From Prochlorococcus sp. AG-409-A19 (GTDB lineage: Bacteria > Cyanobacteriota > Cyanobacteriia > PCC-6307 > Cyanobiaceae), in the NCBI GenBank assembly GCA_003216155.1, contig QCJH01000016.1:1-29708 (forward strand): a DNA stretch of 29,708 nt, in the 5' to 3' direction. The first letter of the stretch is position 1, and every line of letters begins with the position of its first letter. The position numbers were made by a program, and so were the translations under genes. This document shows, piece by piece, positions 31 to 24,122 of the stretch. The notes beneath the pieces were generated by a model. It saw only the letters and a list, made by a program, of their open reading frames with translations, had not been told where the DNA came from and ran no database searches.

Positions 31-102
<72 letters not shown>

Positions 103-143: not shown

Positions 144-416
144 TTGAGCGATTTTTCTCCTGGTGAATCAAAGTTAGCGCCTGGGCTGCGTAAACGTCTC
201 CTTCAGGAGTCAGTAAATCCTTGGCGTGGCCTACGCCGTACTATTTGGTTCGCATTATTTGGGTCAGCTTGTTTGGGCTTTTTTATAATGATTTTGCAAA
301 CTTTAAGTGGAAGTGGTGCATCATTAAACAATTTCACCATTCAAATCATAGCGATTGTTTTCTTTGGAATTTTATTGAAGATTGATCGAAACCAAAGTAC
401 TGACTCAAAGCTTTAA
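144..416 (+). CDS. Small membrane protein, DUF3493-like
   Basis: This 90-residue protein has a basic N-terminal segment (LRKRLLQESVNPWRGLRR, about residues 15-32) followed by two hydrophobic helices at about 34-55 and 62-80. The pattern of a short soluble head, a 'PWRGLRR' box and a helical hairpin resembles the cyanobacterial/plastid DUF3493 family, some of whose plant members (LPA-type) are linked to photosystem II accumulation; this assignment rests on recalled family features, not a search. No ATG is available in frame: the start is a TTG at 144, with an in-frame stop at 123. It is divergent from tRNA-Thr and converges on infB, with 22 bp between the stops. Confidence 0.6.
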   Translation: MSDFSPGESKLAPGLRKRLLQESVNPWRGLRRTIWFALFGSACLGFFIMILQTLSGSGASLNNFTIQIIAIVFFGILLKIDRNQSTDSKL

Positions 417-438: not shown

Positions 439-2403
439 TTATTTTGCCAATTTGCGTCTTTGGGTAACAAGTTTATAAGCATCTACTCGGTCTCCTTCTT
501 CCCAATTGGCAAACCGATCACATCCAATACCACATTCGAAACCAGTCGCCACTTCTTTGACGTCATCTTTGTTTCTGCGAAGGGAGTCTAGATCGCCTTC
601 AAACACAATTTGTTTGGATCGTCTCACTCTTACTCTGCAGTTGCGTTGTAGTTTTCCATTGACTACATAGCAACCTGCTACTGCGCTCTTCCCAATAGAG
701 AAAATTGCTCTGACTTCTGCTTCCCCAAGTGATTCTTCTATTAATTCAGGCGCCAAGAGTCCTTCCATAGCAAGTTGAATATCTTCAAGGAGTTTGTAAA
801 TGACCTCATATTCACGGACATCGACACTATTGGCATCTGCAGCACGTTTGGCTCCTGAAGCCATGGAAGTGTTAAATCCCACGATTACAGCTCCAGATGC
901 AGCGGCTAAGTCAACATCAGTTTCTGTTATTTCACCAGGAGCTGATAAAAGTACTCTTACTTGTACTTCGTCTTTGGGTAATTGTTCAAGGGATCCAAGA
1001 ATTGCTTCTACGCTCCCTTGAACATCGGCTTTGAGAATGAGGTTTAGTTCTTTTAGGTCTCCTTCACTGGCTTGTCCTGAAATTGCCGCGAGAGAAACCC
1101 GCCTTGATGCCATTTGTTGAGCTAGGCGAGAAGCTCTTGCATCTGTTGCTCTTTCGCCAACAACGGCACGTGCTGCTTTTTCGTCGGGATAGACCTCAAA
1201 TTCATCGCCAGCAGTGGGAACTTCGCTAAAACCAAGTGCTTCTACTGCACAGGATGGTCCTGCTACTTTGAGCCTTTTACTGCTTTCATCAACCATTGCC
1301 CGTACTTTCCCTAGTACTGGCCCCGCTGCAAGAACATCACCGGTTCTCAAAGTTCCGTTCTGAACTAGAAGCGTGGCTACAGGACCTTTAGCTTTATCCA
1401 GATGAGCTTCTATAACCGTACCCTTTGCCATTCTTGTTGGGTTTGCTTGTAGATCCTCTACTTCTGTTACTAGTAGAACCATCTCTAGAAGCTTGTCAAT
1501 ATTTTGTCCTTGGATTGCACTGACAGGCACCATCACTACATCTCCACCCCAATCTTCTGCAATGAGGTTCTGATCAGATAACTCTTGCTTGACTCGATCT
1601 GGTGAAGCTCCCTCTTTGTCAATCTTGTTGATAGCAACAACTATTGGCACTTCTGCAGCTCTTGCATGGCTAATGGCTTCCAATGTCTGAGGTCGAACCC
1701 CATCGTCAGCAGCCACTACTAGTACAGCAACATCAGTAACCTTTGTGCCCCTGGCCCGCATAGCTGTAAAGGCTTCATGACCTGGTGTATCTAGGAAGGT
1801 GAGTTTTCTTGGCTTGCCTCCCTGTTCAATTTCAACCTGATAAGCGCCAATATGTTGGGTAATACCGCCTGCCTCACCAGCCGCCACTCTTGATTTGCGG
1901 ATGGCATCAAGCAGACTTGTTTTCCCATGATCTACATGCCCCATCACTGTTACTACTGGTGGGCGACGAATTAAGTGCTCTAAATCAGTATCTTCAATCA
2001 TTGCCGCTGTTTTCTTAGCAGCTTCTTCTACGTCGTCTTGCAGGACTGGGACCCCAAATTCTTCGGCTACTGTTTCTATCGTGGATAGATCAAGAGATTG
2101 TGTGACAGTGGCAATTATTCCTTTGAAGAAAAGGGATTTGATGATTTCTGAGCTTTCTACACTGAGCATGTCCGCTAGCTCTTGAACGGTTAGGTTGGCC
2201 TCTGGGACAATGATCATTTCGGGACGCACTTGCTTTGCCTCGCGGGCTGCCCTTAGTTCCATCGCACGTCGACGTTGACGCTGGCGAGTAGTTTCTTTTT
2301 TTCGTTTCCGCATTGCCGCCACAGGCTTAGCGGATGATTGTTTTTTGCTTTTTGGTTTAGCTGGGCGAGCTAGGCTGGCTGAAAGAATGAGATTTATCTT
2401 CAT
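439..2403 (-). CDS. infB: Translation initiation factor IF-2, 5'-truncated
   Basis: IF-2 is the GTPase that places initiator tRNA on the 30S subunit. Visible parts: an IF2_N-type domain at about residues 66-117; the G domain with G1 GHVDHGKT (155-162), G3 DTPGH (205-209) and G4 NKID (259-262); the beta-barrel domain II; and domains III-IV (C1-C2), ending normally at QRRKLAK. Picocyanobacterial IF-2 is usually well over 1000 residues, with a long basic Pro/Gly/Arg-rich N-terminus. Here the recognisable sequence stops at about residue 10-12 ([10 protein letters not shown]), and the first residues (MKINLILSA) are only the antisense of the pheA sequence lying on the other strand. The ATG at 2403 is therefore the first available Met, not a native start. 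The catalytic core is intact, so a short IF-2 could in principle work if transcribed, but its normal promoter and leader are absent. A chimeric assembly is an equally good explanation. Confidence 0.9.
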
Positions 2404-2704
2404 CCAATCGGGCGAGCCTCAGCTAGAAGGGGATGTCGCCAGTCTTGCGTTTTCATTACATAAAAATGCTCCAGGAGCCTTGCTAGAAGCCCTCTCATGC
2501 ATCGCAAAACTAGGCTTAAATATGAGAAGAATTGAATCAAGGCCATCGAAGAGGGAATTAGGAGAATATGTCTTTTTTGTTGATGTGGACCTATCTCCTG
2601 AAAATAATCATTTTCTCAAAACACTTACAAAGGCCTTAAATCCTTTATGCCAGCACTTAGTACATTTCGGAGCATACCCAAATAGTTCTATTGATCTTGA
2701 ATAA
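2387..2704 (+). pseudogene. pheA: Prephenate dehydratase C-terminal ACT domain, 5'-truncated fragment
   Basis: About 105 codons encode the regulatory ACT domain of prephenate dehydratase, the phenylalanine-pathway enzyme. Seen: RFIFIQ leading in, LAFSLHKNAPGALLEAL, then LNMRRIESRPSKRELGEY, which is the ESRP phenylalanine-binding motif diagnostic of PheA, and FFVDVDL. The whole catalytic domain (about 180 residues, including the TRF active-site motif) is missing. The open frame continues back to 2345, but those codons are antisense infB sequence. Position 2387 is the first in-frame ATG inside PheA-like sequence and is probably not a real start. It converges on the methyltransferase gene with only 2 bp between the stops. 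On its own this fragment cannot make phenylpyruvate. Confidence 0.85.
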
Positions 2705-2706
2705 TC

Positions 2707-3636
2707 TCAGTTTCTTATTCGAAAAACCCCAAACTGCATTAAGCCCTTTGCAAAAGCCCATCGCATAAGCAAAATTGTTGGGATTTCTCTAAGACCTTTA
2801 AAAAAAGCACCTAGTCCAAGACCTAAAACGGCAAAAGGTCTTCTAATCCCCTCAAGAATCGAATCATTCCAAGAAGATATTGTCACTAAAGTCCAATCAT
2901 CAGATTGAACAGCACCATCACAAAAGGGACTATTTATAAGATTATTCCTGAAACCATAAATACTTGCAAATTCCGGATGCGCCCATTGAACAAGCAACTG
3001 ACGCATAACCCATTTTTCCAGCAAAGACATCTCTCCATCCAAATTGTCACGGCGATTCCAATCTGCCAAAGCTAAATAACCTCCTGGACGAAGAACACGT
3101 AATAATTCATCAGCAAAGCGCTGCTTATCAGATATATGAGGACCAACCTCAACACTCCAAACAGCATCAAAACTTCCTTGATCTAATTGCAAATCAAGTG
3201 CATCCATAACCTCAAATCGACATGACAAACCCTCTGGAGTCAATTCTCGCGCTCTCAAAGCTTGAGCGGGGCTAATGGTTATTCCTAAAACATCAAATCC
3301 ATAATCCTCAGCAAGAATTCGACTACTTCCACCGATGCCGCAACCAAGATCTAATACTCGAGAACCAGGAGGTAACTGATCCAGTCCACTCCATTGGACC
3401 AACTCATGAACAAAATCTATCTTTGCCTTCCGGAAATCCTTTTGCGTTGGAGGGTCTCCATAAAAGCCCAAATGAACATGTTCTCCCCAAAGTCTTTCTA
3501 AGAGCTGATCATTAGTCCATGCGTCGTATGCAGACGCCACACTCCGACTATCTTGATATCTACGGTCCTTACTTAACCAAAGGAATAAGTAAACCCCAAA
3601 GGGAAAACAAAGGAAAAGAAAAAACAAAAAAAACAT
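2707..3636 (-). CDS. MPBQ/MSBQ-type SAM-dependent methyltransferase
   Basis: This 309-residue protein begins with a very hydrophobic helix (about 1-21) and continues into a class I Rossmann methyltransferase. Motif I is VLDLGCGIGGSS at about 94-105, followed by GITISPAQ, VMDALDL, SVEVGPHI and ELLRVLRPGG. The linked boxes YDAWTNDQLLERLWGEHVHLG and DFRKAKIDFVHELV are typical of the cyanobacterial 2-methyl-6-phytyl/solanesyl-benzoquinol methyltransferase (Synechocystis Sll0418 type), which acts in plastoquinone and tocopherol synthesis at the thylakoid or inner envelope. The N-terminal helix fits a membrane-bound enzyme with lipid substrates. The start is ATG. It lies 11 bp downstream of the LON-domain gene and may be co-transcribed with it. 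The exact quinol substrate is inferred. Confidence 0.82.
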   Translation of the reverse strand: MFFLFFLFLCFPFGVYLFLWLSKDRRYQDSRSVASAYDAWTNDQLLERLWGEHVHLGFYGDPPTQKDFRKAKIDFVHELVQWSGLDQLPPGSRVLDLGCGIGGSSRILAEDYGFDVLGITISPAQALRARELTPEGLSCRFEVMDALDLQLDQGSFDAVWSVEVGPHISDKQRFADELLRVLRPGGYLALADWNRRDNLDGEMSLLEKWVMRQLLVQWAHPEFASIYGFRNNLINSPFCDGAVQSDDWTLVTISSWNDSILEGIRRPFAVLGLGLGAFFKGLREIPTILLMRWAFAKGLMQFGVFRIRN

Positions 3637-3647
3637 CTGTTCTATCT

Positions 3648-4319
3648 CTAGCTGTTCGTTTTATCGACATTCGCCAAAGTGTCTTTTAAAACAGTTCTCG
3701 CTGCAAGCTGTCTACGGGTATGGTCAAGCATCTCATATTCTCTCTGTAACCTTTCAGTAGTATCAGTCAATTCCAGCAAATGCTGTTGCTCTTCAGCAGC
3801 AGGTCCACCAAGATGCGCTCCTATCCAAAAAGAAAGTTCTCTTGGTAGATCAGGCAAATCATCAGGAAGAGTTATTTGAGAGCCAGTTAATTTCCCCGTG
3901 AGAATTACTACGTCGCTAAGAGCGGAGGAAACACTTTGTGAAAGGTCAAGGAGGTTGTCTTGATTATCAACCTGCTGATCCTCTATCCAGCTCACCATCG
4001 CAGTCCGATAAGGGGTTTCCCTCATCACTTCTAAAATCTGAAACCTCTGTTGACCGCGAGTAATAATGTTACTTCGACCATCCTCTTCTGTTTGATGTTG
4101 CACTATCTCAGCGCAACATCCCACATTCGCCATCTTTCTTTTGGATGGATCCCACCGAACGACTCCAAAACGACTATCGCTCTCTAAAGCCGTTGCCAGC
4201 ATTATCTTGTACCGAGACTCAAAAATGTGCAGAGGAAGTATTTCCTCTGGGAAAAGGACTACATCAGGGAGTAAGAACAGAGGTAATTCCCTGACAGATA
4301 GATCGGCCACGGGAATCAA
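3648..4319 (-). CDS. LON substrate-binding-domain protein (no protease part)
   Basis: This 223-residue protein consists of the N-terminal LON (PUA-like) domain: RELPLFLLPDVVLFPEEILPLHIFESRYKIM at about 10-40, then RFGVVRW, the GCCAEI strand and ITRGQQRFQILE. A helical C-terminal part ends in a probable coiled coil (HLLELTDTTERLQREYEMLD). There is no AAA+ ATPase or Ser-Lys protease domain, so this is the stand-alone LON-domain family common in cyanobacteria next to rpsJ, not Lon protease; its function is not established. The longest start is TTG at 4319. The GTG three codons in (4310) would give VADLSVRELPLF and is a reasonable alternative. It lies about 60 bp downstream of rpsJ. Confidence 0.8.
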   Translation of the reverse strand: MIPVADLSVRELPLFLLPDVVLFPEEILPLHIFESRYKIMLATALESDSRFGVVRWDPSKRKMANVGCCAEIVQHQTEEDGRSNIITRGQQRFQILEVMRETPYRTAMVSWIEDQQVDNQDNLLDLSQSVSSALSDVVILTGKLTGSQITLPDDLPDLPRELSFWIGAHLGGPAAEEQQHLLELTDTTERLQREYEMLDHTRRQLAARTVLKDTLANVDKTNS

Positions 4320-4378
4320 TCAGATAGAGATCTAAATCCTAGTGACCTAAAGAAATTTTGGGAGGAAGTAGCTTCAGA

Positions 4379-4699
4379 TCAGAGCTTAACTTCAATATCC
4401 ACACCACTAGGGAGGTCCAACTTCATTAACGCATCAATGGTCTTGGCTGAAGGGTTGTAAATGTCAATAATTCTCCTATGAGTTCTCGTCTCAAAATGCT
4501 CTCTCGAGTCCTTATCAACATGTGGTGAACGTAAGACGCAATATATCTTCCTTTTTGTAGGAAGAGGTATTGGTCCAATTGCAGTTGCAGCAGTGTTATC
4601 AGCTGTCTCAATGATTTTTTCGCAGGATAGATCAAGCATTCGTCTATCAAAAGCCTTGAGACGAATCCTTATCTTCTGCTGGGCGATGGCCGTTGACAT
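4379..4699 (-). CDS. rpsJ: 30S ribosomal protein S10
   Basis: This full-length 106-residue S10 carries [43 protein letters not shown] and the ending [14 protein letters not shown]10 sits in the head of the 30S subunit and also binds NusB/NusG in antitermination. The ATG start at 4699 fits the cyanobacterial length. It is the last gene of the rpsL-rpsG-fusA-tuf-rpsJ string, the usual cyanobacterial arrangement in which S10 follows tuf rather than heading the S10 operon. It is separated from tuf by a 147-bp gap with a hairpin. Confidence 0.98.
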
Positions 4700-4805
4700 G
4701 AAAATCTAGGGAGATCCCTAATAGGTGATAGTTGAGTTTTCGAGGTTCTTCAAAGAGCCGGGCTGACTTAATTTGCAATAAGCATTAAGCAGGCCATGAA
4801 TCTAA

Positions 4806-4837
4806 TGGATGACTAGACAATTAAGCCTAGCCATCCA
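4806..4837 (-). terminator. Hairpin in the tuf-rpsJ gap (partial terminator or processing site)
   Basis: TGGATG-A-CTAG (4806-4816) and CTAG-C-CATCCA (4827-4837) form a 10-bp stem with one mismatch and a 10-nt loop. It begins about 10 nt after the tuf stop codon on the minus strand. It is not followed by a clear T-run (TTAGATTC follows), so partial termination or an mRNA end-protecting structure is more likely than a full stop before rpsJ. Confidence 0.45.
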
Positions 4838-4846
4838 AAGACTAAT

Positions 4847-6040
4847 TCATTCGATGATTTTGGAAACAACTCCAGCACCAATCGTACGACCTCCTTCCCG
4901 GATTGCGAAGCGCATCCCTTGTTCTATAGCAACAGGACAGATAAGTTCACCTGTCATATTGATGCGGTCACCTGGCATAACCATCTCTACATTGCTTCCA
5001 TCATCAGAAGTGAATGCTGTGATCTGACCAGTTACATCTGTAGTTCGAATATAGAACTGTGGTCGATATCCTGCGAAGAAAGGAGTATGTCTTCCTCCTT
5101 CTTCTTTCTTAAGTACATAAACCTCCCCTTCAAATTTTGTATGGGGAGTTATCGACCCTTTCTTAACAAGGACCATTCCTCGTTCAATATCTTCTTTCTG
5201 AATACCTCTAAGTAGCAAACCAACATTGTCGCCTGCCATACCTTCATCAAGTAGTTTCCTAAACATTTCAACTCCAGTAACCGTTGTCACCCTAGTTTCC
5301 TTAATCCCAACTATCTCTACTTCCTCTCCTACTTTTACCTTTCCTCTTTCAATTCTGCCCGTAGCAACTGTGCCACGACCAGTAATTGAGAAAACATCCT
5401 CAACAGCCATTAAGAAAGGCTTATCAACTTCTCTTTCAGGCTCTGGTATCGAATTATCAACTGCCTCCATTAATTCATTAATTTTAGATTCCCATTCGGA
5501 GTCGCCTTCTAAAGCCTTTAGTCCAGAGACTTTGACGATAGGGACATCAGTAAATCCGTAGCCTTCTAGAAGTTCACCGATCTCCATCTCAACCAACTCA
5601 ATGATCTCTTCATCATCGACCATGTCGCATTTATTTAAAGCGACCACAAGAGCTGGAACACCAACCTGCTTAGCCAAAAGAATATGTTCTTTTGTCTGAG
5701 CCATTGGACCATCAGTAGCAGCACAAACAAGGATGGCTCCATCCATTTGCGCTGCACCTGTGATCATATTTTTCACATAGTCAGCGTGACCTGGGCAATC
5801 AACATGCGCGTAATGCCGCCCATCTGTCTCATACTCAACGTGTGCTGTATTGATGGTAATACCGCGTTCGCGCTCCTCGGGAGCACCATCGATATCTCCA
5901 TAGTCTTGTGCTTTGGCCTGACCCTTCTTGGCAAGCACATTAGTAATTGCTGCTGTAAGGGTGGTTTTCCCATGGTCAACGTGACCGATAGTGCCAATGT
6001 TGACGTGAGGCTTGTTCCTCTCAAACTTCTCGCGAGCCAT
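4847..6040 (-). CDS. tuf: Elongation factor Tu
   Basis: EF-Tu delivers aminoacyl-tRNA to the ribosome. The 397-residue protein is full length: G1 GHVDHGKT (19-26), the effector loop RERGITI, DCPGH (81-85), NKCD (136-139), domain II ([14 protein letters not shown]) and domain III ending [16 protein letters not shown]. The start is [12 protein letters not shown] at an ATG. It lies 43 bp downstream of fusA in the str operon. Nothing is truncated, and it is the only tuf copy seen in the window. Confidence 0.99.
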
Positions 6041-6083
6041 TTTGTTAAAGAATCGGGGGGTGAAAAATTAGGGTTTATAGAGA

Positions 6084-8159
6084 TCAGGAATTGCCCTGAT
6101 TCTTGGAGATGATGGCTTCAGCTACGTTTCGAGGAACTTCCTCATAGTGGCTGAACTCCATAGAAAAGATACCCCGACCCTGAGTCATTGATCGGAGTTG
6201 AGTGGCGTAGCCAAACATTTCGGCCAGAGGCACTTTGGATTGAACTTTAGACAATCCATCATCTATGGATTGTCCTTCGACCTGACCTCTTCGCGAAGAC
6301 AGGTCGCCGATGATCGAACCAAGGAAATCCTCAGGGACCTCGACTTCAACTTTCATCATTGGTTCAAGAAGTACTGGATTGCACCTCTTTACGCCATCTT
6401 TGAAAGCCATTGATCCAGCAATCTTAAACGCCATTTCTGAAGAATCCACATCATGGAAGGAACCATCAACCATGGTGACCTTGACATCAATCAGTGGATA
6501 ACCAGCAATAACTCCAGATTCACAAGTCTCTTTCATGCCTGATTCAGCAGGCTTGATGTATTCCTTAGGTACAACACCACCAACAATCTTATTAACAAAC
6601 TCGAATCCTGAGCCGGGCTCACCAGGCTCCATTTCAATCACAACATGACCATATTGACCCTTACCGCCCGTTTGCCTTGCAAACTTACCTTCTCCTTTTG
6701 AACTTGAACGAATGGTTTCTCTATAAGAAACCTGTGGGGCTCCAATATTTGCCTCAACTTTAAACTCACGAAGCATTCGATCAACAAGTATTTCAAGATG
6801 CAATTCGCCCATACCAGCAATAACTGTCTGACTTGTTTCAGGATCAGTACTGACGCGAAATGTAGGGTCCTCCTCAGCCAATGAAGTCAGTGCTTTAGAT
6901 AGTTTTTCCATATCCCCTTTCGTCTTTGGCTCAACTGCAACTGAAATAACAGGTTCAGGAATAAAAAGAGTCTCAAGAACAATTGGATCATCTGAAGAGC
7001 AGAGAGTATCGCCAGTGGTCGTATTCTTCAGACCTAAAACAGCTCCAAGTTCTCCAGCCCTCAATTCATCTACTTCTTCACGGTCATCAGCCTTAAGAAT
7101 AATCAAGCGAGAGATTCTTTCTTTTTCATCCTTAGTTGAGTTGAGGACATAACTTCCTTTCTTAAGTACGCCCGAATACATTCTGACAAAAGTCAGCTTG
7201 CCATATGGGTCAGCCATGACCTTGAAAGCAAGGGCGCTAAATGGCTCACTGTCATCAGAAGGCCGCAATGCCTGCTCACCATTTGGAAGTAATCCTTGAA
7301 TTGGAGGAACATCCACAGGTGCAGGCAAATAATCAACAACAGCATCCAAAAGCAGCTGGACACCCTTGTTTTTGAAAGCAGAACCACAAAGCATTGGCAC
7401 CAAACCATGCTTAAGAACGCCTTCTCTAATACCTGCTCTTAATTGAGACTGACTTAATTCACCTTTATCAAGAAACTCCTCAATCAAAGCTTCGTCAGTT
7501 TCTGCAATGCACTCCATCAATATTGAGCGCCATTCACTTGCGAGCTCCTGCATATCAGAAGGGATTTCTTGCTCCTCAATATCTTTCCCAAGATCGTCCT
7601 TATAGATAAAAGCTTTGTTCTTTACAAGATCAATAATTCCGCTTAGATCACCCTCTGCTCCAATCGGAAGCTGTATCGGAACAGCATTGGCTTTCAATCG
7701 ATCCTTAATCTGTTTATAAACCTTAAGGAAGTCAGCCCCAGTTCTATCCATCTTATTGACGAATACCATTCTCGGGACTGAATAGCGATCTGCTTGACGC
7801 CAAACTGTTTCAGATTGAGGTTGCACACCACCAACAGCACAGAAAACTGCAATCACGCCATCGAGTACGCGCATTGAGCGCTCAACTTCGATTGTGAAAT
7901 CAACGTGTCCGGGCGTATCGATGATGTTGATACGGTGATCATTCCAAGTAGTTGAAATTGCCGCTGCAGTGATGGTTATCCCGCGTTCTCGTTCTTGAGC
8001 CATCCAGTCAGTTACTGCCGCACCGTCATGGACCTCGCCCATCTTGTGCACAACACCTGAATAAAACAGGATGCGTTCCGTACAAGTGGTCTTGCCAGCA
8101 TCAATATGAGCGGCAATACCAATATTTCTTACACGTTCCAGGGGGAAGGCGCGAGCCAC
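6084..8159 (-). CDS. fusA: Elongation factor G
   Basis: EF-G catalyses GTP-dependent translocation. The 691-residue protein is complete: G1 AHIDAGKT (17-24), RERGITI, DTPGH (81-85), NKMD (135-138), the domain II-V boxes GGKGQYGHV and [11 protein letters not shown], and the domain V segment [20 protein letters not shown] near the C-terminus. It has an ATG start and sits 91 bp after rpsG. The coding sequence for the SSRRGQVEG...DDGLSK region also forms two adjacent hairpins in the DNA (6250-6306), described separately. Confidence 0.99.
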
Positions 8160-8250
8160 AAGATTTTCTCCGGGGTGGGGCTTTAAAGGCGGCTGAGACT
8201 CTACAGGGCAGCCCCCTAATCCTTAAAGTTTTTTTGAGCTTGTGACTAAT

Positions 8251-8721
8251 TCAGTAGCGATAGTGAGCAAAAGCTTTATTGGCTTCAGCCATTTTGTGAG
8301 TTTCTTCTCGTTTACGAACCGCGCTTCCAGCCTCGTTGGCCGCATCCATCAATTCACCTGCCAACTTTTGAGCCATACTCTTGCCATTACGAGCCCTGGA
8401 AAAATTAACTAACCATCTAAGAGCCATTGCTGTACCTCTCTCTTGACGGACTTCCATAGGCACCTGATAAGTCGCACCTCCAACACGACGCGCTCTTACC
8501 TCAACAAGCGGCGTTGCATTCTTTACTGCAGTCTCAAAAAGCTCAATAGGGTCTGAACCAGTGCGCTCATTTATCAAACCAAAAGCTTCAGAAAGTATCC
8601 TCTGAGCAGTGGATTTTTTTCCATGCTTCATTAGCCTGGCGACCATCATAGTTGCCAATCTGTTATTAAATTGAGGGTCAGGAAGGACCGGACGTTTCTC
8701 AGCAGCGTTACGACGAGACAT
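8251..8721 (-). CDS. rpsG: 30S ribosomal protein S7
   Basis: This full-length 156-residue S7 starts [10 protein letters not shown] and contains [29 protein letters not shown] and ending-region [21 protein letters not shown]7 nucleates 30S head assembly on the 3' domain of 16S rRNA and in other bacteria represses its own operon. It lies 69 bp downstream of rpsL and 91 bp upstream of fusA. Confidence 0.99.
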
Positions 8722-8790
8722 AAACCTTAAAAAAGGGAATAAAGGGCCAAAAAGGTGAAAAAGGAGCTCAGAAATTGATCAATTGAATTT

Positions 8791-9168
8791 TCATTCCTTC
8801 TTTGGAGACTTTGCTCCATACTTTGAACGTGCTTGGCGACGATCCTTGACTCCTGCTGTATCAAGAGTTCCTCTAATAATGTGATAGCGAACACCAGGCA
8901 AATCTTTAACCCTGCCCCCTCTTATAAGAACAACAGAGTGCTCCTGAAGATTGTGCCCTATTCCTGGGATGTAGGCAGTGACTTCAAATCCAGATGTCAA
9001 GCGAACACGTGCAACCTTCCTAAGAGCTGAATTGGGCTTTTTAGGAGTAGAGGTATAAACGCGAGTGCAAACCCCCCTACGTTCAGGGCAGGCCCTTAAT
9101 GCAGGAGATTTGGTATTACGAGTGAGGCGCTGACGCTCAGTGCGAATCAGCTGTTGGATAGTTGGCAT
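8791..9168 (-). CDS. rpsL: 30S ribosomal protein S12
   Basis: This 125-residue decoding-centre protein starts [13 protein letters not shown] and has [24 protein letters not shown] (the streptomycin/accuracy loop with wild-type-looking Lys in PKKPNS), [27 protein letters not shown] and the C-terminal YGAKSPKKE. It is the first gene of the str operon on the minus strand and is divergent from glutamate synthase across a 358-bp gap that must hold its promoter. Confidence 0.99.
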
Positions 9169-9526
9169 CGACGATGATCATTTGGCCGGTAACCCGACCC
9201 ATTTCCACAATCTGCAATTTTAACTGTTGACCTGACCTGGGAAATCTTTAGAGATCAATAAACTCCAAATTTGAGTTCCAAGGTTCTCTAAAGACAAGCC
9301 CTATCAAAATTCAGCATTCATCTTGATACATATGTCAATTTGAACAATTGGAAAATCTCTGGTTTAGTTCCTCAAAAAGAAGGCACATAAGTCAATATGG
9401 CCATATAGAGGCCGTTCTTCAGACAATTCCTTTTATGAAGGGCATATCTCTAGGATCTTCATTGACCCTTTTCCTCCCTATAGCAGAAAACTGCTGCAGC
9501 AAAGGAAGATAGCTCAGTCAGAGGTT
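9169..9526. promoter_or_regulatory. Divergent control region between rpsL and glutamate synthase
   Basis: No gene is seen in these 358 bp, which must contain the str-operon promoter (minus) and the glutamate synthase promoter (plus). Structures visible: a perfect 10-bp inverted repeat, TCTTTAGAGA (9245-9254) and TCTCTAAAGA (9285-9294), enclosing a smaller AACTC/GAGTT hairpin; and a short hairpin AGCAG-AAAA-CTGCT at 9482-9495, just upstream of the glutamate synthase start. I found no convincing NtcA site (GTA-N8-TAC). Individual -10/-35 boxes cannot be chosen with confidence. Confidence 0.5.
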
Positions 9527-12500
9527 ATGTCTCAAGCACCACGTCGTCCTCAATGGCCCTACTGCGACAGCAACGCCCCTGAGACCGTGGCTGGCGAAAA
9601 GGATTCCTGTGGAGTCGGTTTTTTAGCCCAAATAGATGGATTAGCCAGTCACTGGATTTTGCAACAAGCTCTCCGTGGCCTGAGCTGCATGGAGCACCGA
9701 GGAGGATGTGGGGGCGACAGTGATTCTGGCGATGGTGCAGGAGTCCTTTGCGCAATTCCCTGGAGCTATCTCGAATCAATCTGGCCTGTAACCAAAGAAA
9801 TTTGTCAAGAAGCATCAGGGTTGGGAATGATGTTTATGCCTCGTGAATCGAATCAGCGCGAGGCAGCTAGAAAATTTTGCGAAGAAGAAGCCAAATCACT
9901 AGGGCTTAGAACTCGAGGATGGAGGAAGGTTCCCGTCAATACATCAGTTCTAGGGCAATTGGCTCTACAAACAGCCCCAGTAATCGAACAATGGCTTTTG
10001 GAGTCAAAAGAAAACAATGATGCACTTGAATCACTCTTATTTCGATTAAGAAGGCGCATCGGCGATAGGGCAAGAAAAACGTTGAAGGGAAATTCAAAAG
10101 AGCTATATGTCGCATCTCTAAGCAGTCGCACAGTCGTATACAAAGGGATGGTGCGTTCAGAAGTCCTTGCGGCTTTCTATTCAGATCTAAAAGATCCTCG
10201 CTTCGAAATTGCCTTTGCCGTATACCACCGTCGCTTCAGTACTAACACCCTTCCCCGATGGCCTCTAGCTCAGCCGATGCGATTACTAGGCCACAATGGG
10301 GAAATAAATACATTGCTAGGGAATCTGAACTGGGCAAGAGCAACAGAAGTCAATCTTGATGAAGTTTGGGGCAGAAACGCAGAAGATATAAAACCTGTAG
10401 TAAATGAAACCTTTAGTGATTCCGCAAATCTTGACGCAACTCTGGAATTACTTGTTCGCAGTGGCCGACCAATTACAGATAGCCTCCTTACCCTAGTTCC
10501 TGAAGCCTTTAGAAATCAGCCTGAATTATCTAATCAACCAGATATTCAAGCCTTTTACGAATATTCAGCTTGCACTCAAGAGCCATGGGATGGTCCAGCA
10601 TTGCTTGTTTTTACTGATGGTCGTTTTGTTGGGGCAACCCTTGATCGCAATGGATTAAGACCAGCTCGTTATTGCATCACTACCGATGGATTTGTAGTTA
10701 TGGGTTCCGAGACTGGTGTAGTTGAACTCAATGAAAATCAAATACTTGAAAAAGGGCGTTTAGGGCCAGGGCAAATGCTTTGTGTAGATATTAAAAATAA
10801 ACGCTTATTACGTAATTGGGATGTGAAGAAAGAAGTTGCAAGTCGTCATCCTTATTCCTCGTGGCTCAAGCAAAACAGAAAAAGTCTAAGAAGATTTCCG
10901 TGGCTAAAAAAGACCCAACTCAAAGATCTAGACCTACTTCAGCAACAAGTGGCCTTTGGATTCACCGCTGAAGACTTTGACCTAGTAATTGAGGCAATGG
11001 CTGGAGGAGCTAAAGAACCAACCTTCTGCATGGGAGATGACATACCACTGGCTGTTCTATCAAACAAACCTCATTTGCTCTACGACTACTTCAAACAACG
11101 TTTTGCTCAAGTAACCAATCCACCAATTGATCCCTTAAGAGAAAAACTTGTGATGAGCCTAGAAATGCATCTAGGCGAAAGGGGGTCACCACTTCTACCG
11201 AAGGAATCTGCGGCAAATGTAATTCACATTCAGAATCCAATCCTGAATGAAGCTTCTCTAGCAGCTATACGCGAACAAGGTCTTAAAAATACAACTCTTA
11301 AAACACTTCTCCCTATCACTGATGGTCCAAAAGGACTGAACAAAAAATTAAAGGCTCTTTGTGATGAAGCAGAAAATGCCGTTTGCGCCGGCAATCAAAT
11401 ATTAGTTCTCTCAGATCGTGGAATTGGACCAAAAACAACCTATATACCCCCTCTCTTGGCCGTTGGAGCAATCCATCATCACTTACTAAAAAAAGGACTG
11501 CGTCTCAAGACATCTTTAGTCATAGAAACTGCTCAATGCTGGAGTACACACCATCTTGCATGCCTAATCGGATATGGCGCTAGTGCAGTTTGCCCCTGGC
11601 TCACTTGGGAAACCACTCGCCATTGGTGGAAGCATCCACGCACTCAAAAACTCTTCGAGACTGGCAAATTGCCAGTTCTTACTATTGAAGAAGCCCAGGC
11701 AAATTTGCAAAAAGCATTAGAAGATGGCTTGCGCAAAATCCTATCCAAGATGGGCATTTCGTTATTAGCGAGCTACCACGGTGCTCAAATCTTTGAAGCT
11801 ATCGGTATTGGAGCCGACTTAATCGAACTAGCCTTCAAAGGGACCACGAGTCGAGTAGCAGGAATAAGCCTTATTGATTTAGCCAGCGAAACTCTGACTT
11901 TCCATGCAAAAGCTTATCCAGAATTAAATCGAGAGAAGCTCGAATTCATGGGCTTTGTGCAATATCGCTCGAGTGGTGAATTTCATCTAAATTCACCTGA
12001 AATGTCCAAAGTTTTACACCGAGCAGTCAAAGAGGGGCCTGGCTATGATCATTTTTCAACTTATCAAACACTTCTTGAGAATAGGCCTGCAACTTCTCTT
12101 CGAGACTTACTTACTTTTAAATCATCGAATTCTCCATTGCCTTTAAATGAAGTTGAAAGTGTAGAAAGCATTTGCAAACGTTTTTGCACCGGTGGGATGA
12201 GCCTAGGTGCTCTTTCAAGAGAAGCCCATGAAGTACTTGCAGTAGCCATGAATAGGATTGGAGGAAAAAGCAATAGTGGTGAAGGAGGAGAAGACCCTTC
12301 AAGATTCAAAACTCTCGAAGATGTTAATTCTGATGGCATATCCTTATCTCTACCTAACATCAAAGGTCTTGAAAATGGAGACAGTGCTTGTTCCGCAATA
12401 AAACAAATTGCATCAGGGCGATTTGGTGTAACACCGGAATATTTACGAAGCGCACAGCAACTTGAAATCAAAGTAGCCCAAGGAGCAAAGCCTGGGGAAG

Positions 12501-14119
12501 GGGGCCAACTCCCAGGGCCCAAAGTAGATACTTATATAGCCAAATTAAGGAACAGCAAGCCAGGAGTTGCACTCATTTCCCCACCACCGCACCACGACAT
12601 TTACTCCATTGAGGACCTAGCACAGTTAATACATGACCTACATCAAGTTCACTCATCTGCAAAAGTAAGTGTGAAACTTGTAGCTGAAATTGGCATAGGA
12701 ACCATTGCAGCTGGAGTTGCTAAGGCTAATGCTGATGTCATTCAAATCTCAGGCCACGATGGAGGAACTGGCGCATCTCCCTTGAGTTCAATAAAACATG
12801 CAGGTAGCCCATGGGAGCTGGGTCTTACCGAAGTTCACCGCTCACTAATTGAAAATGGCTTAAGAGATCGAGTCTTACTACGAGCTGATGGAGGATTAAA
12901 AACAGGCTGGGACGTAATTATGGCAGCTTTACTTGGAGCCGAAGAATATGGGTTTGGATCAATTGCGATGATTGCCGAAGGCTGCATCATGGCTCGTGTT
13001 TGTCATACAAACAAGTGTCCGGTTGGGGTCGCTACGCAGCAAGAAGCACTTCGAAAACGGTTTCCAGGAATCCCTGAACACGTCGTCAATTTCTTCGTAT
13101 TTGTAGCAGAAGAAGTACGCCAACTTTTGAGTTTCATAGGTGTTCCACACCTAGAAGATTTAATCGGGCGAACAGAACTGCTAAAGCCAAGAGAAGAATT
13201 AAATCTATCCAAAACAAATTCTCTTGACTTGTCTTGCTTACTCACTCCAATTGCGAATGCAAAAAACAGAAAATGGCTTGATCACAATTTAGCCGCTCAT
13301 GATAATGGACCAGTTTTAGAGAACCAACTCCTTTCGGACAAAGAGTTCATCAAAGCAATCAATAATCACTCTGAAGTAGATCGAACTATATCCATCTCAA
13401 ATACTGATAGAAGTTTATGTGCAAGAATTGCCGGCGAAATTGCCGGGCAACATGGCAATACTGGATTCCAAGGTCAACTCAATCTAACCTTCAAAGGTGC
13501 TGCCGGTCAAAGTTTTGGCGCTTTCAATCTTAAGGGGATGAATATTAGATTAATAGGCGAAGCAAATGACTATGTAGGCAAAGGAATAAATGGAGGTAAA
13601 ATAACTATAATCCCTCCAGAAATAAGCCATCAATCTGGAAATCAAGTGATTTTAGGTAATACTTGCCTATATGGAGCAACAGGTGGAGAAATATTTGCAC
13701 TAGGCAGAGCTGGAGAACGTTTCGCAGTTCGAAATAGTGGAGCAAGAGCAGTTATTGAAGGAGCGGGTGATCATTGCTGTGAATATATGACTGGCGGAGT
13801 TATTGTTGTACTTGGGTCAACAGGTAGAAATGTTGGCGCAGGGATGACAGGGGGAATAGCATTCTTGCTTGATGAAAATAATAATGCCAGGGCTCAAGTA
13901 AACAATGAAATTGTAGAAGTCATCGAACTATCAAACGAGAAGCAAGAAAATATTCTAAAACCACTTTTGGAATCTCATTTTGCCCACACTTCAAGTCCTA
14001 AAGCAAAGGAAATTCTTGCCAATTGGCATCAATCAAAAAGCCTCTTTAAAGTTCTTTTTCCCCCCAGCGAAAAAATAAATATTGGCTTGATGCCAAATCC
14101 TAAAAAGCTATCTATATAA
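9527..14119 (+). CDS. gltB: Ferredoxin-dependent glutamate synthase (Fd-GOGAT)
   Basis: This enzyme makes two glutamates from 2-oxoglutarate and glutamine with reduced ferredoxin. The protein is full length at 1530 residues. Class II glutamine amidotransferase domain: catalytic Cys28 in EKDSCGVGFLAQ (the preceding 27 residues are the expected cleaved propeptide), then HRGGCGGDSDSGDGAG and YHRRFSTNT. The central domain is followed by the FMN-binding synthase barrel (GGKSNSGEGGEDP, GQLPGPKV, ISGHDGGTGASP, LRADGGLKTGWD). The 3Fe-4S cysteines are C1153, C1159 and C1164 (C-X5-C-X4-C). The C-terminal right-handed beta-helix has repeated G-rich turns. No NADPH-oxidoreductase subunit gene is adjacent, and the family assignment to the ferredoxin type follows from cyanobacterial context (also called glsF/gltS). 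The start ATG has GAGG only 2 nt before it; AAGGAAG at about 9502 is a further candidate. Confidence 0.96.
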   Translation: MSQAPRRPQWPYCDSNAPETVAGEKDSCGVGFLAQIDGLASHWILQQALRGLSCMEHRGGCGGDSDSGDGAGVLCAIPWSYLESIWPVTKEICQEASGLGMMFMPRESNQREAARKFCEEEAKSLGLRTRGWRKVPVNTSVLGQLALQTAPVIEQWLLESKENNDALESLLFRLRRRIGDRARKTLKGNSKELYVASLSSRTVVYKGMVRSEVLAAFYSDLKDPRFEIAFAVYHRRFSTNTLPRWPLAQPMRLLGHNGEINTLLGNLNWARATEVNLDEVWGRNAEDIKPVVNETFSDSANLDATLELLVRSGRPITDSLLTLVPEAFRNQPELSNQPDIQAFYEYSACTQEPWDGPALLVFTDGRFVGATLDRNGLRPARYCITTDGFVVMGSETGVVELNENQILEKGRLGPGQMLCVDIKNKRLLRNWDVKKEVASRHPYSSWLKQNRKSLRRFPWLKKTQLKDLDLLQQQVAFGFTAEDFDLVIEAMAGGAKEPTFCMGDDIPLAVLSNKPHLLYDYFKQRFAQVTNPPIDPLREKLVMSLEMHLGERGSPLLPKESAANVIHIQNPILNEASLAAIREQGLKNTTLKTLLPITDGPKGLNKKLKALCDEAENAVCAGNQILVLSDRGIGPKTTYIPPLLAVGAIHHHLLKKGLRLKTSLVIETAQCWSTHHLACLIGYGASAVCPWLTWETTRHWWKHPRTQKLFETGKLPVLTIEEAQANLQKALEDGLRKILSKMGISLLASYHGAQIFEAIGIGADLIELAFKGTTSRVAGISLIDLASETLTFHAKAYPELNREKLEFMGFVQYRSSGEFHLNSPEMSKVLHRAVKEGPGYDHFSTYQTLLENRPATSLRDLLTFKSSNSPLPLNEVESVESICKRFCTGGMSLGALSREAHEVLAVAMNRIGGKSNSGEGGEDPSRFKTLEDVNSDGISLSLPNIKGLENGDSACSAIKQIASGRFGVTPEYLRSAQQLEIKVAQGAKPGEGGQLPGPKVDTYIAKLRNSKPGVALISPPPHHDIYSIEDLAQLIHDLHQVHSSAKVSVKLVAEIGIGTIAAGVAKANADVIQISGHDGGTGASPLSSIKHAGSPWELGLTEVHRSLIENGLRDRVLLRADGGLKTGWDVIMAALLGAEEYGFGSIAMIAEGCIMARVCHTNKCPVGVATQQEALRKRFPGIPEHVVNFFVFVAEEVRQLLSFIGVPHLEDLIGRTELLKPREELNLSKTNSLDLSCLLTPIANAKNRKWLDHNLAAHDNGPVLENQLLSDKEFIKAINNHSEVDRTISISNTDRSLCARIAGEIAGQHGNTGFQGQLNLTFKGAAGQSFGAFNLKGMNIRLIGEANDYVGKGINGGKITIIPPEISHQSGNQVILGNTCLYGATGGEIFALGRAGERFAVRNSGARAVIEGAGDHCCEYMTGGVIVVLGSTGRNVGAGMTGGIAFLLDENNNARAQVNNEIVEVIELSNEKQENILKPLLESHFAHTSSPKAKEILANWHQSKSLFKVLFPPSEKINIGLMPNPKKLSI

Positions 14120-14120
14120 A

Positions 14121-14429
14121 ATGCCTTGGTTCATAAAAACTGAAACTTTTACAAATGAAATGATGGGATTAGTGCCAGCTAAACGGAAAAAGTATCTTGA
14201 AGAGCACAGAGAATGGGTGGATAAATTACGTTCTTCAGGCCTAAATATTGCAAGTGGTTATCTTATAGATGATTACCAAAAACCTGGCGGAGGAGGATTG
14301 CTAGTTGTAGAAATGGACACTTTTGAATCAGCCAAAACTCTAATTAAAAATGATCCATTAATAATTTCTCGGCTAGTGAATTGGAGAATAGAAGAATGGA
14401 TACCAGTATGCGGTAAACTATTGGAATAG
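14121..14429 (+). CDS. YciI-like small protein
   Basis: This 102-residue protein belongs by appearance to the YciI/YCII dimeric alpha-beta barrel superfamily. It opens with a strand (MPWFIKTETF), has a charged helix LEEHREWVDKLRSSGLNIASG carrying the family-type His, a glycine-rich PGGGGLLVVEM strand, and a second helix with NDPLI (the 'DP' position usual in this family). The enzymatic role, if any, is unknown. The start codon follows the glutamate synthase stop by a single base, so the two are almost certainly co-transcribed and possibly translationally coupled. It converges on lipA with 2 bp between the stops. Confidence 0.75.
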   Translation: MPWFIKTETFTNEMMGLVPAKRKKYLEEHREWVDKLRSSGLNIASGYLIDDYQKPGGGGLLVVEMDTFESAKTLIKNDPLIISRLVNWRIEEWIPVCGKLLE

Positions 14430-14431
14430 TC

Positions 14432-15301
14432 TCATCTAGGGTTCTCCTTCATAAGTTTTTTAACCTCAGAGGCATGATAACTACTTCTCGTCAATGGAGA
14501 ACTGATAACTTGAATAAAACCTAATTTCTGCTCAGCTTCTTCCCTATAAAAAGCAAATTTCTTAGGCTCTACGAAACGATCTACGGCTATATGATTAGGG
14601 CCAGGGGAAAGATATTGACCAATAGTGACTATATCTACACCATTAAATCTCAAGTCATAAAGTACCTCTAATACCTCCTTATCAGTTTCTCCAAGCCCCA
14701 CCATTAATCCAGATTTAGTATAAACTTTAGGCCAACCTTCTCTTACTCGATTAAGTAAATTCAAAGACCTCTGATAATTCCCTTGAGGGCGCACACGACG
14801 ATAAAGCCTTGGGACAGTTTCAATATTATGATTCAGAACATCTGGAGAAGACTCCATAACTTTTGCCAAAGCATCCCAATCACCACAAAAGTCAGGAATT
14901 AACAATTCAATTGAAGTAATTGGAGATAGCCTTCTAATAGCTTGAACACAAGCAACAAATTGACTAGCACCCCCATCCTTTAAATCATCACGGTTTACAG
15001 AAGTAATAACTACATGTACAAGTCCCATTCGATAAACAGCTTCACCAATTCTTTCCGGCTCACTTGGGTCAAGTGTTCTTATACTCTTGTCAAAATCAAT
15101 ATCGCAATAAGGGCATGCACGAGTACAGCCTGGACCCATAATTAAAAAGGTTGCTGTACCAGCGGCAAAGCATTCCCCAATATTTGGACAACTGGCTTCC
15201 TGGCAAACAGTATTCAAGTTCAGATCTAGCAAGAGATCTGCAACAGCACCAATTCTTTCCTTTTGAGGAGCCTTTACACGTAACCAATGAGGTTTGAGCA
15301 A
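14432..15301 (-). CDS. lipA: Lipoyl synthase
   Basis: LipA is a radical-SAM enzyme that inserts two sulfurs into octanoyl-lipoyl domains. In this 289-residue protein the auxiliary [4Fe-4S] ligands are C33, C38 and C44 ([12 protein letters not shown]). The radical-SAM CxxxCxxC is C59, C63, C66 (CTRACPYC). The C-terminal RSSY motif in [10 protein letters not shown] supplies the Ser ligand to the auxiliary cluster. The start is TTG at 15301, giving [16 protein letters not shown], which matches the expected N-terminus; the nearby ATG at 15318 is out of frame. It converges on the YciI-like gene. Confidence 0.96.
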
Positions 15302-15383
15302 AACGTTTTCCAGAACATTGAAACTTTAGAAAGACCTTTGAAACAGCTATTCATTAAGCCATTTTCTTTTAAAATTCATCAAA

Positions 15384-15457
15384 CGGGATGTAGCGCAGCT
15401 TGGTAGCGCACTTCGTTCGGGACGAAGGGGCCGCAGGTTCGAATCCTGTCATCCCGA
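15384..15457 (+). tRNA. trnP: tRNA-Pro (anticodon CGG)
   Basis: A complete 74-nt cloverleaf: acceptor CGGGATG pairs with CATCCCG, with an A discriminator; the D arm is GCGCAGCTTGGTAGCGC; the anticodon arm CTTCG-TTCGGGA-CGAAG gives CGG (reads CCG, Pro); the T arm is GCAGGTTCGAATCCTGT. CCA is not encoded. No integrase or attachment-site duplication is seen nearby. Confidence 0.97.
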
Positions 15458-15487
15458 TTAAATCATTATTTACTTAGTACAGAACAT

Positions 15488-17287
15488 CTAGTATCCACGG
15501 GGAGTAACAATCCAACCATCTTTGACAAAACTAGTTCTATTCCCAACCAATAATATTGTAAGCATATCAACTTCATTTACAGGTAATTTTCCCAAGCTAT
15601 GAATTTGAATATTTTCTTCCTTACGTCCGAGTTGCCTTGCAAGAACTACTGGTGTGCTGCTTAAGCGACACTCTAAAAACAAATCAATAGCCCTTTGTAA
15701 TTGCCAATTTCGTCCCTCAGAACGTGGATTATAAAGAGCAACAACAAAATCTCCTTGAGCTGCAGCCTTTACCCGATCCTCTATTTTTAACCAAGGTGTT
15801 AATCGGTCGCTAAGGCTTATTGCGCAAAAGTCATGCATTAATGGTGCACCAGCTTTTGCAGCTGCCATTTGCAAAGAAGATATACCCGGATGAACTTGAA
15901 ATTTTGGGCGATCACTCTTCGGCAAATCCAACCAAAGTTCAAGTGCCAAACCTGCCATACCATAAATTCCACTATCACCTGAGGAAACCAATGCAACCCT
16001 TATCCCTTGTTTAGATAAGGCCAAAGCTTCATTACATCGATCTCTTTCTCTAGTTAATTGACCCTTTATAAGGACCTGGTCCTTTCTTAACAAAGGTGCC
16101 AAAAGATCCAAATATCTACCATAGCCCAACCACACTGCACTTCTGGCAAGTGCATATCTTGCATCTTGAGTCAACATGGAAATATCCCCTGGACCTGATC
16201 CAACCAAATGCAATTCGCCTAGTTTTGGAGCGAAAGGCTGCTTGGCCTCTGCAATGGCAATCGTGACTGAACCACGCTCAAGAACATCCGAAGAATAAAT
16301 AATCTTGGGCTGTATTAATTCAAATTCACTTTGTCTTTCAGCAGCCAACAAAGCCGCAGCTTCTGAAACTGATGGCGTCCCTACTTCTGCCTCTACTAAT
16401 TTAGAGGGGTTAGGTACTGAAACTCTTGATAGATCTTCGGCCTTGAATAGCCTTATCGGCCACCCCCTAGAATTAGCGAAACCAATCAAACCTGGTTCAT
16501 CAAACTTTATATCAATACTGGCCAATCCAGCTATAGATTGAAGGGCTAAATCATTCTTTAAAAGAGAATCAAATAAAGCTTTTTCAATAAGTTTCTGGCT
16601 TGTAAAGCGTTCACAACCTACTCCTATCCACAAAGTAGCTGGATGCCAACCACATTTATTTTTTAAAGAAGATCCTATAAATAACTTACCAGAGTAATTT
16701 ATAGGATCTTCTTCTGAAAACCCCTTAAAAGAGTTTTTTGCTGCAACAGATTCTTGCCAGATAGAAGACCCAGATTTCTGCTCTAATTCAATTCTCTTCT
16801 TGGATGCCTGACTAAGCATCAAATCCTTCCAGCACTTACTACTGCCACTACGGGTCCAACCCCAAGCCTCACCAAAACTATCTAAAGGCAAGCATTCTTG
16901 ACTATTAGTTCCACCTGTAATTACAGGAATTGCATCGAGATCTTCTGCTAATTGACTAGCCAAGTTTTCAGCTCCTGCCTTATGACCACCTAACAAAGGC
17001 ACCACAAAAAATGTACGAGCATCAATCACGATTACCGCAGGATCTTCTTCTTTATTCCTAATAAGTGGGGCGACTAAACGAATTACAGCTCCAATTGCTC
17101 CTACAACAATCAATACACCTCCTTGGTTCCAGTAATCACAAAGGATTTGTGCAGGTGAACCTACAATTATGTTTTGAGGTGCAATCTGTAAAGTAGATGC
17201 TGCTCCTTTTGTTAAAGCAAGCTCATCCACGTGACCTCTAAGCCTCAGCCTCTCAAGCAGAGGCAAAGCATTGACTGAAAGGCCCAA
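15488..17287 (-). CDS. cobJ: CbiG-CobJ fusion, corrin biosynthesis
   Basis: This 599-residue protein joins two cobalamin enzymes. N-terminal CbiG part (about 1-315; cobalt-precorrin-5A hydrolase): VGAIGAVIRLVAPLI and LLGGHKAGAENLASQLAE at about 62-112, then after a variable linker the CbiG C domain with GVGCERFTS, SIDIKFDEPGL and the signature VGTPSVSEAAALLAA. C-terminal CobJ/CbiH part (about 350-599; precorrin-3B C17-methyltransferase): LVGSGPGDISMLT, ALVSSGDSGIYGMAG, VHPGISSLQMAAAKAGAPLMHDF, FVVALYNPRS and LLVGNRTSF. Such fusions are known in cyanobacteria. The start is TTG at 17287; an in-frame stop lies about 40 nt further upstream and no ATG is in frame before it. The linker DNA contains a perfect 17-bp inverted repeat (16666-16713). 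Confidence 0.9.
   Translation of the reverse strand: MGLSVNALPLLERLRLRGHVDELALTKGAASTLQIAPQNIIVGSPAQILCDYWNQGGVLIVVGAIGAVIRLVAPLIRNKEEDPAVIVIDARTFFVVPLLGGHKAGAENLASQLAEDLDAIPVITGGTNSQECLPLDSFGEAWGWTRSGSSKCWKDLMLSQASKKRIELEQKSGSSIWQESVAAKNSFKGFSEEDPINYSGKLFIGSSLKNKCGWHPATLWIGVGCERFTSQKLIEKALFDSLLKNDLALQSIAGLASIDIKFDEPGLIGFANSRGWPIRLFKAEDLSRVSVPNPSKLVEAEVGTPSVSEAAALLAAERQSEFELIQPKIIYSSDVLERGSVTIAIAEAKQPFAPKLGELHLVGSGPGDISMLTQDARYALARSAVWLGYGRYLDLLAPLLRKDQVLIKGQLTRERDRCNEALALSKQGIRVALVSSGDSGIYGMAGLALELWLDLPKSDRPKFQVHPGISSLQMAAAKAGAPLMHDFCAISLSDRLTPWLKIEDRVKAAAQGDFVVALYNPRSEGRNWQLQRAIDLFLECRLSSTPVVLARQLGRKEENIQIHSLGKLPVNEVDMLTILLVGNRTSFVKDGWIVTPRGY
16666..16713. repeat. 17-bp perfect inverted repeat inside cbiG-cobJ
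   Basis: AAGAAGATCCTATAAAT (16666-16682) and its exact reverse complement (16697-16713) are separated by 14 nt. Both arms are translated, within the linker residues SEEDPINYSGKLFIGSSL between the two halves of the CbiG part. No T-run follows on the coding (minus) strand. Confidence 0.9.
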
Positions 17288-17433
17288 AGCCAGTCTAGAG
17301 TTAGTGGAAATCAGGGTAGTTACTTAGTAGTGGATGTAGTAGTACATAAGATAGAACTTGATTTTAAGTCAGAGGGATCTCAAAAGCTAATAATATAAGA
17401 ATCAATGTTATTTGTTAGTAACACATTGATGAG

Positions 17434-18615: not shown

Positions 18616-18864
18616 ACATCAGAGGGGCAGGAATGCTCGATTCAGTCCTTTTAGCGCTGCACCTAAGAGCAATGACTTAAGGCAAGTCCCTGCAAGCGAA
18701 CTGCCTACTTCAGTTTATGTTAATTAATGCCAAACAATAGCTAGTTCTTGTAGTTGTAAATTTACTTGTATTGATGAACAGCCATTATCGGAGCCCCTGA
18801 TTAAGACTCCAGGCCCAGACTGATGAGCTAGCGGATAGAACATTTGTTACTTGCTTCAGTAGTG

Positions 18865-19064
18865 ACCGGCTCTCGCACTTATGCTTTCGGGAGCGGTCCC
18901 CTTATAGGGGCCCACTCGCTCCAGTGCTCTAAAGGACTTTTGTCTCTTTGTATGGCACTGGCGCCCGGATAAATCATTGCTTAAGTACTGATTTACCCGG
19001 GGCCCTGGCAAGCCTTCGGGCCTGTCCAAGGGGTGGCCCTCCACCTCGATCCCGTACCTCGAGG
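18865..19064 (+). ncRNA. Structured psaA leader RNA (psaA RNA-motif type)
   Basis: The 200 nt before psaA are GC-rich compared with the flanks and form successive hairpins. (1) ACC-G-GCTCTCG (18865-18875) with CGGGAGC-GGT (18888-18897). (2) The alternative GGAGCG (18890-18895) with CGCTCC (18917-18922), enclosing CCCC-TTATA-GGGG. (3) CCAGTGC (18921-18927) with GCACTGG (18955-18961), perfect. (4) CCCGGATAAATC (18964-18975) with GATTTACCCGGG (18990-19001), one mismatch. (5) GCC-TTCG-GGC (19012-19021), a UUCG tetraloop hairpin extended by GG/CC. (6) CCTCGA (19044-19049) with TCGAGG (19059-19064), just before the start codon. Known: a conserved 'psaA' RNA motif (Weinberg and colleagues) occurs in cyanobacterial psaAB 5' UTRs. 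The match here is by position and hairpin style, not a covariance search. Confidence 0.7.
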
Positions 19065-19073
19065 AACCTCTAG
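19044..19073 (+). promoter_or_regulatory. psaA ribosome-binding site held in a hairpin
   Basis: The only good Shine-Dalgarno sequence before psaA is GAGGA at 19061-19065, 8 nt from the ATG. Its GAGG is the 3' arm of the perfect CCTCGA/TCGAGG stem with a 9-nt loop. If this stem forms in the mRNA, ribosome entry would be hindered, which suggests translational control of PsaA synthesis. This is inference from base pairing only. Confidence 0.55.
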
Positions 19074-21329: not shown

Positions 21330-21350
21330 CCTTTCCTGACCTTTCCCTCC

Positions 21351-23600: not shown

Positions 23601-23645
23601 CTCAAACACTTACTACTCCTGAAAAAGCTGTCTTCAAGCAGCATG

Positions 23646-23679
23646 AAGCCCCGCCATTAGAGTTGGCGGGGCTTTTTTT
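23646..23679 (+). terminator. Rho-independent terminator of psaAB
   Basis: GCCCCGCC (23648-23655) pairs with GGCGGGGC (23665-23672) around a 9-nt loop, with extra A-T pairs at the base, and is followed by seven Ts (23673-23679). It sits about 45 bp after the psaB stop, ending the operon. Confidence 0.95.
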
Positions 23680-24074: not shown

Positions 24075-24122
24075 AGAATCAATTCCAAAGTATCTTGCAT
24101 AGGAACTAACTGTTTCCTTGAT

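Follow-up and report, generated by a model that had tools for sequence, protein, structure and literature searches.

The window (the whole stretch of 29,708 nucleotides that was analysed) carries near its left end two incomplete genes, infB (minus strand) and pheA (plus strand), which lie head to head, abut each other and are both cut on their 5' sides. The initial annotation had described both genes as broken at one point, and the open reading frames, the Pfam and NCBIfam domains and the homology of relatives bear this out. The infB-side arm begins 30 bases from the contig end with a tRNA-Thr(CGT) found by ARAGORN (31..102, minus strand), which also lies beyond the 3' end of infB in Prochlorococcus sp. 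MIT 1300 (G275), G429 and G402. It is followed by a small open reading frame (144..416, plus strand), which in relatives adjoins the infB 3' end according to tblastn, and then by the 3' part of infB itself (439..2391, minus strand). This part encodes the IF-2 core in about 650 codons, as judged by Pfam, NCBIfam and the relatives, and the 5' part is missing. The frame as called (439-2403, minus strand) is longer by up to four codons, which are antisense pheA.

Among the matches listed, the nearest IF-2 relatives (P0097, P0098 and P0099) are 1124, 1136 and 1132 residues long, and the window match starts at their residues 475, 487 and 484, respectively. As some relatives also have short open IF-2 frames (701, 720, 761, 842 and 896 residues in G604, G498, G411, G621 and G389 among the matches listed), length alone is no proof of a cut; the adjoining pheA sequence is. 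The DNA upstream of the window infB is pheA, so infB is cut, and the choice of a start codon by the gene caller was rejected as the cause of the short IF-2. Many cyanobacterial IF-2 entries among the matches listed have 649-782 residues and the close relatives 1104-1145; the IF-2 of Synechococcus sp. KORDI-100, for example, has 772 residues and comes from a 2.79-Mb contig. The low-complexity N-terminal part of IF-2 may often be affected by start-site calls or frameshifts.

The pheA-side frame (2345-2704, plus strand) encodes 119 residues with ACT as its sole Pfam domain. Pfam, NCBIfam and tblastn identify the 3' part of pheA at 2390..2704 (plus strand) as the ACT-domain end of prephenate dehydratase, with the catalytic domain missing. 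The frame matches the prephenate dehydratase profile from position 176 of 284, and the relatives' PheA proteins of 280 residues from about residue 177. The two frames overlap at 2345-2403, but only because each of them extends a short distance into the neighbouring gene in antisense. The models 439-2403 and 2345-2704 are thus truncated at a suspect join, and both gene annotations should indeed be treated as broken.

The right arm (2390..28304) is collinear with MIT 1300 from 1,510,249 down to 1,484,552 in a gene-by-gene match of 20 out of 20 genes, and no second break is seen against MIT 1300 from pheA to 28304. Altogether 22 of 23 window genes match the fetched MIT 1300 stretches; the remaining one, 28,813-29,403, is found at the corresponding place in G408. 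This last frame contains a coding tandem repeat at 28907-29088 (72-base unit, 2.5 copies, 98% matches), and its translation shows the repeated AAPVEREIVSSEIEVNSAPTVTEK.

The junction sequence

Comparison of codons with those of relatives places the chimeric junction at GAGATTT (2389..2395). Zero to seven nucleotides can be assigned to infB, to pheA or to both, and there is no filler. The comparison used 11 distinct infB rows that reach the breakpoint, one shorter infB row and 11 pheA rows. On the infB side homology extends to base 2391, where the 11 distinct relatives read A-(V/I/L/M)-(V/L)-L-(S/T)-ASLARP. The residue before base 2391 is Asn in the window and Ala in all 11 distinct genome sequences. 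As 39 of 119 further IF-2 proteins among the matches listed share the window's Asn before the LSASLARP stretch, the infB portion possibly reaches 2395, and an estimate of 0-4 common bases was widened to 0-7 for the same reason.

On the pheA side homology starts with the Arg codon 2390-2392 (N-(R/C)-T-R-F in the 11 relatives' rows) and possibly one base to the left of 2390. The Thr codon to the left of this Arg is conserved in 11 of 11 distinct sequences and reads Met in the window, so pheA is not safely extended to the left of 2389. A common stretch of eight bases (2384-2391) was dropped because it requires this Met to stand for the conserved Thr. Of the break positions proposed earlier, the pheA start at the Arg codon therefore holds, while the infB end has to be moved, since homology runs further, to 2391 and possibly 2395. 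No repeats of at least 40 nt are present near the junction within the window, and on this within-window view a repeat-mediated rearrangement was rejected.

Gene order in relatives

The initial contig scan listed 80 loci, two of which (L001 and L002) have cyanobacterial titles. The window proteins resemble those of Prochlorococcus and Synechococcus, and PsaA, PsaB, EF-G and EF-Tu are 90-95% identical to their MIT 1300 counterparts. Protein identity over 22 common genes divides evenly, with the window nearer MIT 1300 in 11 and nearer G242 in 11. Eight concatenated proteins are 82.8%, 83.3%, 84.2% and 84.8% identical to the window in MIT 1300, G408, G410 and G242, respectively; the 88.8% and 86.6% of G068 and G362 are based on fewer sites, as gltB is partly or wholly missing there. 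The eight-protein tree, which leaves out G147 and G263 because they have fewer than seven of these genes, shows a split with support 1.000 between the window, MIT 1300, G408 and G410 on one side and G242, G068 and G362 on the other.

The pheA-methyltransferase-LON stretch, searched in 400 genomes of the family, gave 25 matches at E <=1e-150, the best being G410 with 70% identity; G242 is absent from these 25 nearest genomes. Genus searches included one genome each around G429 and G423 and five around G438, and the most similar DNA found in them, in infB, was 76% identical to the window. No close relative of the window lineage is present among the genomes searched.

In MIT 1300, rpsL, rpsG, fus, tuf, rpsJ, LON and the methyltransferase gene follow each other on one strand, and pheA comes next on the other strand. 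Beyond pheA lie genes that include rnhB, rne and two radical-SAM-like genes, then tRNA-Thr, the small open reading frame, infB, ylxR, nusA and rimP. Several of these names, those of ylxR-nusA-rimP included, were assigned by reading the translations; with these names, the expectation that ylxR, nusA and rimP lie upstream of infB, as in many bacteria, is confirmed for MIT 1300. Here pheA and infB share a strand and are separated by 13,350 bp. The pheA part of the window corresponds to 1,509,947-1,510,249 and the infB part to 1,521,656-1,523,599, so that the path of the window on MIT 1300 leads from 1,484,552 to 1,510,249 in pheA, jumps 13,350 bp to 1,523,599 in infB and then runs backwards.

The generality of this arrangement was followed in family-wide searches, in which infB matched 281 of 300 genomes and the methyltransferase gene 277 of 300. 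Among the matches listed, 67 pairs of infB and the methyltransferase gene on one contig were read by eye; the far pairs of G461 and G476 were omitted from the 67, which leaves the count of near pairs unaffected. In this set, 33 pairs from 32 genomes are less than 50 kb apart and 34 are farther apart. The infB gene has the MIT 1300 orientation in 31 of the 33 near pairs listed, with gaps of 9.2-15.8 kb in 19 of them and of 38-42 kb in 12. Where the infB and pheA loci are near each other, they thus share a strand, and infB has its 3' end toward the pheA side; the strand of pheA relative to infB is seen directly in MIT 1300. The two exceptions are G576 and the pair G429b, which is a fold-back arm. 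In G576 contig C11, infB (38936-40882) and the methyltransferase gene (9384-10295) are on the same strand, 28.6 kb apart, possibly as the result of a rearrangement or a misassembly. Two methyltransferase copies, 73% and 71% identical to that of the window, occur on contigs C66 and C131 of G475, which may point to an assembly that is mixed or co-sorted.

The short arrangement is not universal, as in G242 (2,410,873 bp) the two loci are about 265 kb apart. All those of the 25 genomes nearest in pheA-methyltransferase-LON DNA that have a same-contig pair among the 67 listed (11 genomes, including the fold-back of G429) have the short layout. The eight-protein tree would also speak for the short-distance layout in the window species, if its root is assumed to lie on the side of G242 and G362.

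A similarly folded contig is found in G429. This contig (C15, 24,681 bp) has inverted arms of 4,931 bp at both ends (L119 and L099; 1-4931 and 19751-24681, in opposite orientation), which are 99.98% identical and whose sole mismatch is their fourth inner base. At the inner junction nusA is joined head to head to rne, and both genes are cut. The NusA reading VAVAREANPP, which MIT 1300 also has, runs on through AGCTACTGCTAC on the rne side, suggesting that up to about 12 nt could be common to nusA and rne at this point. The contig thus contains the methyltransferase-pheA stretch twice, once in normal and once in inverted orientation, a state expected from amplification with strand switching. It resembles the window in that the same chromosomal region is affected and the infB operon is placed head to head with the rne-pheA-methyltransferase side. 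It differs in its breakpoints, which lie in nusA and rne, and in also containing the rne side with its continuation uncut.

Proteins were searched for the fusion itself and for intact copies of the two genes. The pheA-side frame gave 95 matches; for the IF-2 frame the best 120 of 3,794 matches, and for the full-length PheA of G410 the best 120 of 1,159, were considered, the IF-2 search covering proteins up to about 1,144 residues. Among the best 120 IF-2 matches, P0096 is the window's own frame and the remaining ones are at most 91% identical. P0096 is listed with a longest contig of 29,708 bases, so the window is apparently a complete contig. In the matches listed, the pheA part of the window reaches at most 70.7% identity over at least 95 residues, and 72.6% over 73, and those pheA matches that align slightly further to the left continue into normal PheA. 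The first three residues of the fused frame on the infB side are aligned in P0096 only, among the matches listed. No infB/pheA fusion was found in relatives among the protein matches listed or the 67 pairs, and the protein matches listed include no intact IF-2 or PheA of the window's own species. Either a relative with the same junction or an intact copy would have spoken against the initial annotation, and neither turned up among these matches.

Origin of the junction and its consequences

These observations suggest, with a probability of about 0.85, that the contig is an inverted (fold-back) chimera of the type produced by multiple displacement amplification (MDA), that is, a technical artefact and not biology. 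An amplification chimera had been considered a likely cause before, and the inverted geometry, the sharp junction and the lack of a fusion in the relatives listed make it the likelier one. We infer that the source DNA was amplified by MDA, that the species has the MIT 1300 layout and that the polymerase switched strands. In such an event, the 3' end synthesized by the phi29 polymerase would be copied from the ribosomal-protein and methyltransferase side into pheA and would then detach. Some 13 kb away, the loosened 3' end could anneal to infB on a displaced strand, and copying would then reverse its course and pass through the infB 3' end, the small open reading frame and tRNA-Thr. The opposite course, from infB into pheA, would give an identical join. 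In the cell itself infB and pheA are most probably intact.

The junction appears to fit the class of MDA chimeras, being inverted, within one region, with a tiny overlap or none, and unique. The two segments are inverted when relatives with the MIT 1300 layout stand in for the parent, and the join is absent from relatives among the matches and pairs listed. In the data reported in PMC1855051, 406 of 475 MDA chimeras are inverted; 337 of the inverted joins are below 10 kb and 69 above, and the direct ones number 11 and 58, so that the two orientations are about equally frequent above 10 kb. In these chimeras, as in the window, two stretches of one genome that lie near each other are connected in inverted orientation and the DNA between them is skipped. 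The window differs from most of them in its separation of about 13 kb, which is taken from a relative, and in its 0-7 common bases; the parental separation of 13,350 bp (from MIT 1300) is long for inverted MDA chimeras, which mostly span less than 10 kb. At the junctions of inverted MDA chimeras a short complementary match of 2-21 nt is expected. The match at the present junction, possibly zero, neither supports nor excludes such an origin: PMC1855051 gives matches of at least two bases in 76.8% of joins overall and in only 34.8% of inverted joins above 10 kb.

The single-cell data on Prochlorococcus MED4 reported in PMC2731171 are closer in organism. The 454 libraries contained about one chimera per 10 kb, 80% of them inversions and 80% less than 10 kb apart, and two cells yielded seven chimeric contigs per cell prior to added sequencing. 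The organism group is that of the window, the joins are mostly inverted and a few of them persist into contigs. That study, which suggests that annotation can expose chimeric contigs, had a reference genome of the same strain, whereas the parent of the window is deduced from other species. Benchmarks of a marine single-cell workflow in PMC6122165 give a mean of 1.5 misassemblies per 100 kb.

The proposal that a simple deletion brought together infB on the minus strand and a divergent pheA on the plus strand is contradicted by the gene order of relatives, the comparison that had been suggested as a check. In MIT 1300 the two genes are on the same strand with 13,350 bp between them, so a deletion would give a head-to-tail join, and the head-to-head join requires an inversion. 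A deletion would need a divergent ancestor. One listed pair, G429b, has that order, but it is the second arm of a fold-back, and in 31 of the 33 near pairs listed infB points toward the side of pheA and shares its strand, an arrangement from which no deletion can produce a head-to-head join; in G242, the coordinates show that a deletion would remove about 2.1 Mb. As the flanks are not in the ancestral orientation in MIT 1300 and the near pairs listed, the deletion was rejected, and its probability is close to negligible. A genuine chromosomal inversion of about 13 kb, from the middle of infB to the middle of pheA, would lose no DNA, split both genes and leave a reciprocal junction elsewhere. 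The MIT 1300 layout would yield exactly this junction, and the absence of intact infB and pheA of the same species among the proteins listed is also predicted by a real rearrangement. The infB gene is essential in bacteria. However, the inversion would split it and would remove the catalytic domain of PheA in a photoautotroph, it is absent from the same-contig pairs listed except for the fold-back arm of G429, and no repeats of at least 40 nt flank the junction within the window, which makes it very unlikely. A join that is real in the cell in the sense of a recent inversion, with a core-only IF-2 and a PheA ACT fragment both tolerated and this prephenate dehydratase lost, is likewise very unlikely.

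A chimera could also have been made without MDA, by ligation or a k-mer join in the library or the assembler. With the G242 layout in the species, it could likewise connect loci across a long distance, and the join would then be direct instead of a fold-back. The junction of 0-7 nt without longer repeats agrees with an assembler or library origin, and inverted chimeric reads are known from ligation library preparation as well, according to PMC13141652. This origin is nevertheless unlikely, as MDA favours inverted joins of loci near each other (PMC1855051) and random joins would usually link unrelated loci.

The probable MDA-type chimera is biologically ordinary, and the fusion is most likely not a real feature. 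Fold-backs of this kind are detectable by comparison of gene order without reads, and G429 provides a second case. At this end of the contig it is unsafe to infer gene order or gene loss; if it is not corrected, the join would make a Prochlorococcus-like lineage appear to have lost prephenate dehydratase and to possess a shortened IF-2.
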